From positions 3,470,501-3,534,500 of the forward strand of contig NZ_CP018099.1 of NCBI RefSeq assembly GCF_001886815.1: a stretch of DNA of 64,000 nucleotides. Direction: 5' to 3'. Shown here piece by piece: positions 38,572 to 41,337 of this stretch. This stretch comes from Caldithrix abyssi DSM 13497. GTDB lineage: Bacteria; Calditrichota; Calditrichia; Calditrichales; Calditrichaceae. The notes beneath the pieces were generated by a model. The model was not told the origin of the DNA and ran no database searches. It saw only the letters and a list, made by a program, of their open reading frames with translations. Each line of letters starts with the position of its first letter. Positions within the stretch are counted from its first letter, which is position 1. The position numbers and the translations under genes were made by a program.

Positions 38572-38949
38572 CTATTTTTTTTCTGCAATACAATCCACTT
38601 CGATTAAAACGTCTTTGGGCAGGCGGGCCACTTCCACGGTCGATCGCGCCGGCACGGCCTTGCCAAAATAGGCGGCGTAAATTTCATTGACCTTTGAAAA
38701 GTCGTTCATGTCTTTCAAAAAAATGGTCGTCTTGACCACATGATCCAGATCGGAGCCTGCAGCCTCAAGAACGGCTTTTAAATTTTCGAACACCTGCTTT
38801 GCCTGCTCAACCACACCGCCTTCAATGAGCGCGTTGGTTTGCGGATCGATGGCAATCTGACCCGATGTAAAGATCAGCCCGCCGGACTCCATGGCCTGCG
38901 AATAAGGGCCGATGGGCGCCGGCGCTTTATCGGTTTTAATGGCTTTCAT
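38572..38949 (-). CDS. ridA: RidA-family enamine/imine deaminase
   Basis: Start taken at ATG 38949 (MKAIKTDKAPAPIGPYSQAM), preceded by GGAGG; the frame extends upstream without support. At 125 residues it has the family's usual length. 'APIGPYSQAMESGGLIFTSGQI', 'EAAGSDLDHVVKTTIFLKDMNDF' and 'PARSTVEVARLPKDVLIEVDCIA' are RidA signatures, with the Arg that binds the substrate carboxylate (R in PARSTVEVARLP). It hydrolyses reactive 2-aminoacrylate and similar enamines from PLP enzymes. Confidence 0.95.
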   Translation of the reverse strand: MKAIKTDKAPAPIGPYSQAMESGGLIFTSGQIAIDPQTNALIEGGVVEQAKQVFENLKAVLEAAGSDLDHVVKTTIFLKDMNDFSKVNEIYAAYFGKAVPARSTVEVARLPKDVLIEVDCIAEKK

Positions 38950-39229
38950 AAATCGTTTCCTCCGTTTTAAACAGAACATAAATAGAAACAAGAAAATACC
39001 AAAGGTTAGGTAACGAGTCAATACTTTGTGATTGATGATCTGAATGTCCACCAAAATTTGGAGAATAACAAAATCTTTGCTAAATACGATTATCAACTTA
39101 CCCCCTAACTCCGGCCATTCCAGCATGATGGGTGGGGTTATCTTGCCTTCTCTTTGAAAAAAGCAAGGAGGTGAAATAAGGGTGTGAATTTTTCAGAAAC
39201 AAACCTCTCTAATGCTTTAAATATCATAT

Positions 39230-40735
39230 GATTAAAGTCTTCCCCGCCCGATGAATCAGCGGGCTATTCTCAATCGTGTCTGACGGGACGGATTCATTGG
39301 CGGTACGTAATGTAAAGTTTTTGTAGGATATGTCAAATTCTTGTTGGAGTAAAAATTAAATCCCGAAGGGATTGTTGAGAATAACGCGGCAGTTCACTGC
39401 CGGGAAAAGGGAAACCACACAAAATGTAAAAATGTCCCGTAGGGACATCTGAATTTTCATCCCGCCAGTTTCAACCGTCTCTACGGAACGGGATTGTGGC
39501 TTGCGGTGGTTAATTCTTCCCGCCGTTGAAACGACGGGCTATTCTCAATCGTCTCTGACGGGACGGATTCATTGGCGGTACGTAGTGTGAAGTTTTTGTA
39601 GATATGTCGAATTCTCGTTTGACATAAATTAAATCCCGTAGGGATAATTGAGAATAACGCGGCAGTTTACTGCCGGGGAAAGGGAAACCACACAAAATGT
39701 AAAAATGTCCCGTAGGGACATCTGAATTTTCATCCCGCCAGTTTCAACCGTCTCTACGGGACGGGATTGGGGTTGGTGCGGTTCATCATCCCCGCCGTTG
39801 AAACGACGGGCTATTCTCAATCGTCCCTGACGGGACGAAATTAATTTGACGTTTCGAGTGTAAAATTCCTGTAGATGTGTCGAATTCTCGTCTGGCATAA
39901 ATTAAATCCCGTAGGGATAATTGAGAATAACGCGGCAGTTCACTGCCGGGAAACGGGAAACCACACAAATGTAAAAATGTCCCGGAGGGACATCTGAATT
40001 TCCATCCCGCCAGGTTCAGCCGTCCCTACCGGACGGTATTTAGGTTTAGGGATCGTCTTCCCCGCCGATGAATCAGCGGGCTATTCTCAAACGTCCCTAC
40101 GGGACTGGATTGAGTTTGGTGCGGTTCATCATCCCTGCCGTTGAAACGACGGGCTATTTTCAAATGTCCCTGACGGGACGGAAATTTTTAGAAAAATCCC
40201 GTAGGGATTGTTGAGAATAACGCGGCAGTTCACTGCCAGGAAACGGGAAATAACACAAATGTAAAAATGTCCCGGAGGGACAATTGAATTACCATTACGC
40301 CAGGTTTCAGCCTTCCCTACGGGACGGATTCATTGGCGGTACGTAATGTGAAATTTTTGTAGATATGGCAAATTCTTGTTGGAGTAAAAATAAAATCCCG
40401 TAGGGATTGTTGAGAATAACGCGGCAGTTCACTGCCGGGAAAAGGCAAACCACACAAAATGTAAAAATGTCCCGGAGGGACATCTGAATTTCCATCCCGC
40501 CAGGTTCAGCCGTCCCTACCGGACGGTATTTAGGTTTAGGATCGTCTTCCCCGCCGATGAATCAGCGGGCTATTCTCATTCGTCCCTACGGGACTGGATT
40601 GGGTTTAGTGCGATTCATCATCCCCGCCGTTGAAACGACGGGCTATTGTCAATCGTCCCTGACGGGACGGGTTTGGTTGGTGTTGGGATGGCACATTGTT
40701 CCCGCCATTGAGATGACGGGCTATTGTCAAACCAG
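39230..40735. repeat. Hairpin-rich REP/BIME-like repeat array
   Basis: About 1.5 kb of gene-free DNA built from three recurring pieces. (a) A CCCGCCGTTGAAACGACGGG-type hairpin followed by CTATTCTCAA and a CGTCCCTGACGGGAC palindrome occurs about eight times (e.g. 39261, 39534, 39808, 40638). (b) TCCCGTAGGGAT then TTGAGAATAACGCGGCAGTT and a CACTGCCGG arm occurs five times (39374, 39648, 39921, 40211, 40410). (c) A GTCCCGTAGGGAC-type palindrome follows each (b). Pieces (a) and (b) are inverted relatives of each other. Spacing of (b) copies is 274, 273, 290 and 199 bp. No gene was found between 38950 and 40842. Confidence 0.9.
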
Positions 40736-40842: not shown

Positions 40843-41337
40843 ATGAGTCCTGGCGAAAAAATCAAACAAGAAATGCTGCAGGAATTTGGGCACGCCTACC
40901 AGGCCTTCGGTTTGAATAAACTGATGGGCTTTGTGGTGGCTCTGCTTATCTTCTCGTCTGAGCCGCTTTCCCTGGATGAAATCACCGAACAACTGGGCAT
41001 GAGCAAAGGCCCGATCAGCCAGATTACGCGCCGCCTGCTGGACCACAACCTCATTCGACGCGTCTGGAAGCCCGGCGAACGCAAGAATTATTTTGAGATT
41101 CAACCGGAAATTTTCGGCTCCGCCTTTCGCAATAATTTTGAATTAATTAAAAACAACCTGCGCATTGCCCGTCAACTAAAAAAAGAAGTTGAAGCCGCTA
41201 ACGATCCTTCTCTGCAAACGCTGCATGTCCGACTGAAAGAAATGGAAACCTTCTACGATCTAATGTGCAGGCATTTTCAATCTTTTCTGGAAGAATGGAA
41301 AAAAGAACGGGAAAAAATTTATCAGGATCACGCATAA
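40843..41337 (+). CDS. GbsR/MarR-family transcriptional regulator
   Basis: A 164-residue DNA-binding protein: 'LSLDEITEQLGMSKGPISQITRRLLDHNLIRRVWKPGERKNYF' is the winged helix-turn-helix with wing, preceded by 'MGFVVALLIFSSEPLS'. A C-terminal helical stretch (~residues 100-160) would dimerise. The layout fits the GbsR group. It stands directly upstream of, and in the same direction as, the SDR-to-ligase operon; a shared ATGTTTGAAA element before both genes suggests that it represses itself and that operon. Confidence 0.85.
   Translation: MSPGEKIKQEMLQEFGHAYQAFGLNKLMGFVVALLIFSSEPLSLDEITEQLGMSKGPISQITRRLLDHNLIRRVWKPGERKNYFEIQPEIFGSAFRNNFELIKNNLRIARQLKKEVEAANDPSLQTLHVRLKEMETFYDLMCRHFQSFLEEWKKEREKIYQDHA

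Follow-up and report, generated by a model that had tools for sequence, protein, structure and literature searches.

Among the described systems, the closest to the locus considered here are the REPINs and BIMEs of E. coli and Pseudomonas, in which inverted hairpin pairs occur in many copies and go together with one Y1 gene present as a single copy, the REPtron layout, and the IS200/IS605 elements (IS608, ISDra2) with their MITEs, which carry a Y1 HUH transposase and a hairpin right after the stop codon of its gene. A survey of the Y1 transposases distinguished a TnpA_Y1 subclass 1.2, with proteins of about 148 aa bearing DH[IV]H, WQ and YIKNQKEHH, a low copy number and a distribution mostly in Cyanobacteria and Bacteroidetes, for which its table gives 'no' under REP or terminal structure (Quentin et al. 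2018, PMC6006769). Rfam family RF01687, "Acido-Lenti-1 sRNA", is typed as 'Gene; sRNA' and was rated likely RNA by Weinberg et al. In addition, CGTC-tagged REPs (Di Nocera 2013) have been described as a single 8-9 bp stem with a terminal CGTC and without associated transposase, and an 18-nt REP-like palindrome of C. abyssi, aAACCGTTgaAACGGTTt, as lying outside any larger repeat (PMC5317091). RF01687, subclass 1.2, the REPINs and the 18-nt C. abyssi palindrome are already known, each separately; no literature connecting a hairpin element with either RF01687 or subclass 1.2 was found in a search lying mostly outside subscription journals, and an earlier link is possible.

The array described here lies in the window, that is, the whole analysed stretch of 64,000 nucleotides of C. 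abyssi DSM 13497. It shares with REPINs and BIMEs the inverted hairpin pairs, the multiple copies and the link to a Y1 gene, but the associated enzyme has the motif Y---Q--HH instead of Y---NP and the repeat consists of two hairpins joined by a CTA linker. The similar transposase and the hairpin after the stop codon recall IS200/IS605, but here several hairpins stand at each end, the gene copy number is low and gene-less units far outnumber gene-bearing ones. Compared with the survey of subclass 1.2 (PMC6006769), a conserved LE/RE pair and a double-hairpin flank are found, and in more phyla. The 46-nt double hairpin is the same as that of RF01687, typed as sRNA in Rfam, whereas here it is interpreted as a DNA element that flanks Y1 transposase genes. 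Assignment to the CGTC-tagged REPs was rejected, the CGTC lying here inside a double-hairpin element tied to transposase genes. The best explanation, with a probability of about 82%, sees in the 273-bp unit a gene-less and hence non-autonomous version of a small transposon of the IS200 type, with a transposase of TnpA_Y1 subclass 1.2.

The array and the anatomy of its unit

An earlier note on this DNA had proposed an array of hairpins in both orientations, which was borne out as an intergenic array of units of about 273 bp running from 39241 to 40735. The features are, in window coordinates:

38572-38949, minus: RidA/Ribonuc_L-PSP gene, left neighbour, outside the element
39241-40735, no strand: whole array of gene-less transposon units, flanked by divergent genes
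39245-39290, plus: A element (double hairpin), remnant of a leading unit
39359-39404, minus: unit 1, B element (double hairpin, inverted)
39434-39446, no strand: unit 1, LE palindrome, GTCCCGTAGGGAC
39475-39491, no strand: unit 1, RE palindrome, CCGTCTCTACGGAACGG
39519-39566, plus: unit 1, A element
39633-39677, minus: unit 2, B element
39707-39719, no strand: unit 2, LE palindrome
39748-39764, no strand: unit 2, RE palindrome
39791-39838, plus: unit 2, A element
39906-39950, minus: unit 3, B element
39979-39991, no strand: unit 3, LE palindrome, GTCCCGGAGGGAC
40020-40036, no strand: unit 3, RE palindrome
40061-40106, plus: unit 3, A element (RF01687, 39.9 bits, above gathering score)
40134-40180, plus: extra A element after that of unit 3
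40195-40240, minus: unit 4, B element
40269-40281, no strand: unit 4, LE palindrome
40311-40327, no strand: unit 4, RE palindrome (this unit has no A element)
40394-40439, minus: unit 5, B element
40469-40481, no strand: unit 5, LE palindrome
40510-40526, no strand: unit 5, RE palindrome
40550-40595, plus: unit 5, A element (RF01687, 41.2 bits, above gathering score)
40623-40669, plus: extra A element after that of unit 5
40701-40730, plus: truncated A element, stem1 and linker only
40843-41337, plus: MarR-like regulator gene, right neighbour, outside the element

The direct repeats follow one another at start-to-start distances of 273, 273, 290 and 199 nt, in agreement with the period of about 273 bp, later shortened, which had been read from the letters. 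Along the array CGGGCTATTCTCAA alternates with its inverted relative, and TCCCGTAGGGA, with at most one mismatch allowed, has 16 matches in the 64-kb window, all of them within the array, against an expected 0.65.

A full unit is composed of four palindromic parts in constant order, namely B (minus), LE (GTCCCGKAGGGAC), RE (CCGTCYCTACSGRACGG) and A (plus), where A and B follow a common plan, stem1-CTATTCTCAA (or TTATTCTCAA)-stem2, shared with RF01687. The earlier note had recognised neither this constant order nor the identity of the double hairpin with an Rfam family. In the arrays of the C. abyssi genome B and A are nearly always separated by 110-116 nt, and A and the following B by about 60-68 nt. 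Folded as single-stranded DNA, a single unit performs far better than its shuffles (z -5.9). By inspection, no GTAG was seen at the hairpin foot, where the minus strand reads AATAG-CCCGC. Membership of RF01687 was decided by a covariance-model score at or above the gathering threshold of 37 bits, and the stem1-CTATTCTCAA-stem2 double hairpin is a member of the family through the copies at 40550-40595 and 40061-40106, the other window copies scoring 14-29 bits. Matches of the array to further Rfam families, TtnuHACA9 among them, were discarded, their scores being at chance level and far below gathering. The approximately 200 bp to the left of the array (39035-39236) belong to a different dispersed repeat, relatives of which lie at 775202, 1192949, 2162413, 2772610, 2994903, 3124881 and 4783291.

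Copies and transposase genes in the C. abyssi genome

The genome consists of one contig of 4,978,541 bases, in which copies were counted by pattern and model searches. The TTGAGAATAACGCGGCAGTT half (B) has 29 genomic copies and the CCCGCCG...CGTCCCT half (A) has 32, both with 0 in the reversed-pattern control, so that the single-copy region which the earlier note had named as its counter-case was not what was found. These approximately 60 copies are clustered at about six to eight chromosomal sites. Moreover, one part of the window array shows 92% identity with an array lying about 680 kb off and 89% with its own adjacent unit; between sites, units have therefore been exchanged or copied. In two congeners (G001 and G003) the orthologous ridA has no such array beside it, and neither has the orthologous marR-like gene in one, the gene order differing there as well; no clean empty site was found in the congeners, synteny being broken at both flanks.

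Three genes for Y1 enzymes are present in the genome (609908, 777941 and 4862096), all of them away from the window array, which has none beside it. An own RAYT gene with the same hairpin, for which the earlier note had suggested looking, did not emerge: the three genes are flanked by hairpins unlike those of the array, and none belongs to the cognate clade, the best being 42% identical. A search of viral contigs for a Y1 of the C. abyssi genome found none. Two other arrays of the family, at L066 5627-6835 and L068 5942-7228, have gaps of 1.5 kb, for which a decayed Y1 gene was considered and rejected, as each array encloses an AAA_14/DUF4143 ATPase gene there.

Other repeats accompany these genes or occur elsewhere in the chromosome. 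The Y1 gene at 4862096 (L077 3020-3540) has AAACCGTTTAAACGGTTT upstream and AAACTGTTAAAACAGTTC directly after its stop codon, and its relative from another genus (L164) has AAACCGTTGAAACGGTT on either side. These flanks suggest that the published REP-like palindrome of the same genome (PMC5317091) goes with the gene at 4862096 and its relative, and not with the window array. Tandem arrays with a 54-nt period at 755 kb are made up of a second family, GGCTATAATCATKTCATCCCTTCGGGATT, which also adjoins the Y1 gene at 609908 (L064 2790-3260, L076 1880-2780). A third repeat, composite and about 310 nt long (L070 4480-5540), combines AAACCGTTGAAACGGTTT, TTTCGTCCCTTCGGGAC and a CTCCCAGAATAAGGTCTGGGAG hairpin.

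Double hairpins beside Y1 transposase genes

Across 40 Calditrichota genomes, RF01687 copies repeatedly adjoin Y1 genes. This association was quantified with a structural scan for double hairpins, blind to gene positions, which returned 32 within 600 nt of 63 Calditrichota Y1 genes (68.7 kb), 1 at more than 1.5 kb (205.6 kb) and 0 in shuffled flanks. At 78 GTDB loci selected by protein similarity alone, 129 elements were found in 90.0 kb near the gene versus 13 in 414.7 kb farther away. Over the two scans, the density within 600 nt of Y1 genes is 46 to 96 times that farther off. The GTDB elements occur at 49 loci, from Calditrichota, Planctomycetota, Verrucomicrobiota, Acidobacteriota, Bacteroidota and Desulfobacterota, a Zixibacteria genome and one gammaproteobacterium being also included (names as in the records). 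Double hairpins hence surround genes of a little-studied class of Y1 transposases in no fewer than seven phyla of bacteria, the strict scan finding no element at 44 of the 63 Calditrichota genes and 29 of the 78 GTDB loci. Rfam's own RF01687 model detects flanking copies at gathering score, at loci which were picked after the GTDB scan and therefore illustrate the association without measuring it.

The arrangement around the genes is also regular. The nearest downstream element is on the plus strand in 49 of 54 cases (minus in 5), usually 41-54 nt past the stop codon, and the nearest upstream one on the minus strand in 33 of 45 (plus in 12), with both sides occupied at 25 loci. In fact, a hairpin starts 2-30 nt past the stop in 77 of 137 genes, as against 5.4% of random places. 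Similar proteins go with similar elements, across phyla too (Mantel r 0.44, p 0.001; labels permuted within phyla).

The associated enzymes, of about 150 aa and bearing DHVH, WQ and YIxNQxEHH, match TnpA_Y1 subclass 1.2. Among 139 proteins HxH is present in all and Y---Q--HH in 124, and 61 of these 124 loci have an element within 300 nt in the strict scan. NCBIfam transpos_IS200 matches the associated enzymes above its cut-off, whereas REP_Tyr_transpos reaches 24.3 bits against a cut-off of 80, or does not match, and the closest solved structures are IS608 TnpA and ISDra2 TnpA. With respect to classical REP/RAYT systems (TnpA_REP, class 2), the multicopy, intergenic and inverted-pair character is present; Y---NP and REP_Tyr_transpos are lacking, and both by its enzyme motif and by a hairpin foot in which no GTAG was seen the system falls outside this class. 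The flanking by elements that is sought for subclass 1.2 was seen in relatives (the G007 locus) and not at the window locus itself, and the C. abyssi genome itself holds no cognate gene. The earlier proposal of a repeat mobilised by a REP-associated transposase was consequently right as to a non-autonomous repeat of a Y1 (HUH) transposase and has to be amended as to the enzyme, which is IS200-like of subclass 1.2 (Y---Q--HH) and not a RAYT (Y---NP).

Gene-bearing and gene-less units

The connection between array and gene is found in G007, a relative from the same family, whose array (L139) is homologous to that of the window, with 76-93% identity over many stretches, and comprises one unit with an intact Y1 gene plus gene-less units. 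The gene sits exactly between LE GTCCCGGAGGGACATC and RE GCCGTCCCTACGGGACGG, two inner palindromes which are both present in each of the window units, and its flanks align with these units. One of the gene-less units of this G007 array likewise aligns over its whole length. In blastn of the window array against Y1 and related loci, 29 matches fell in L139 and one short match in L175. In the full transposon, B (minus) is followed by the LE hairpin and a transposase gene of about 450 nt; the RE hairpin stands immediately after the stop codon, and A (plus) comes last. The window units retain B-LE-RE-A, with about 25-30 nt in the position of the gene.

The same pairing was encountered elsewhere. 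In twelve genomes of other phyla, the distances within minus-plus pairs of RF01687 are bimodal, with 13 pairs at 100-114 nt, a class comprising every such pair under 200 nt, and 5 pairs at 545-591 nt; subtraction of a gene of about 450 nt from the latter gives roughly the former. In three other lineages, a Planctomycetales, an Acidobacteria and a 'Deltaproteobacteria' genome (G049, G047 and G040), the gene-less units align with a gene-bearing unit once the ORF is removed, and B, LE, RE and A are common to both. Both ends are hence shared by gene-less and transposase-bearing copies, as in the MITEs of IS200/IS605, between the window and G007 as well as within G049, G047 and G040. From this shared anatomy, the window array may be described as a stack of non-autonomous REPIN/MITE-like derivatives.

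Other explanations have to be weighed against this one. That the repeats represent a structured small RNA amplified as a multicopy RNA gene agrees with the Rfam class, with the two window copies above gathering score and with the rating of Weinberg et al. Nevertheless, both orientations occur within one array, the inverted and fixed-spacing symmetry around transposase genes is not predicted for a trans-acting RNA, and the pairing would be conserved equally well by a single-stranded DNA hairpin. The structured-RNA option of the earlier note is disfavoured by this symmetry and is considered very improbable, the double hairpin being best read as DNA and not as an RNA gene. Enterobacterial BIMEs have established roles, and the position between divergent genes would suit an array binding gyrase, IHF or a nucleoid protein for chromosome structure or for insulation of ridA and the marR-like gene; the absence at the orthologous flanks of G001 and G003, and an anatomy already explained by the gene association, make this hardly credible.

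The regular 273-nt period, the many units per site and the lack of a cognate gene would also be expected of a BIME-like satellite grown solely by slippage and unequal recombination, in which the transposase link were historical and without present role. Nevertheless, the unit in the window is nearer to the array about 680 kb away than to its own neighbour, and dispersed single units exist in other genomes; copying to new sites has therefore occurred, and a satellite of this kind is regarded as unlikely.

If the unit is a gene-less transposon copy, its behaviour can be outlined by analogy with the TnpA of IS608 and ISDra2. Hairpins exposed as single-stranded DNA at the replication fork would be bound by the Y1 enzyme, whose tyrosine would cut at the unit ends and rejoin them, the unit being moved or copied. 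Gene-less units would ride in trans and may once have been spread by the enzyme, the local 273-bp period probably resulting from tandem duplication via recombination or slippage. Since a gene of the cognate clade was not found, the array in C. abyssi probably either survives as a relic or relies on a distant Y1 enzyme.

In a wider context, we incline to the view that the subclass 1.2 enzymes make up a REP-like system of their own, apart from the RAYTs and extending over at least seven phyla, that RF01687 is the DNA-substrate face of this system and not an RNA gene, and that the window array is a relic population which has outlived its enzyme. Three loose ends would be joined in this way: an Rfam 'sRNA' without function, a Y1 subclass without substrate and the unexplained palindrome arrays of Calditrichota. 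A candidate enzyme substrate can now be read from the gene flanks, which makes each of them testable. The case is also a warning that an Rfam family with many copies can represent the ends of a transposon.
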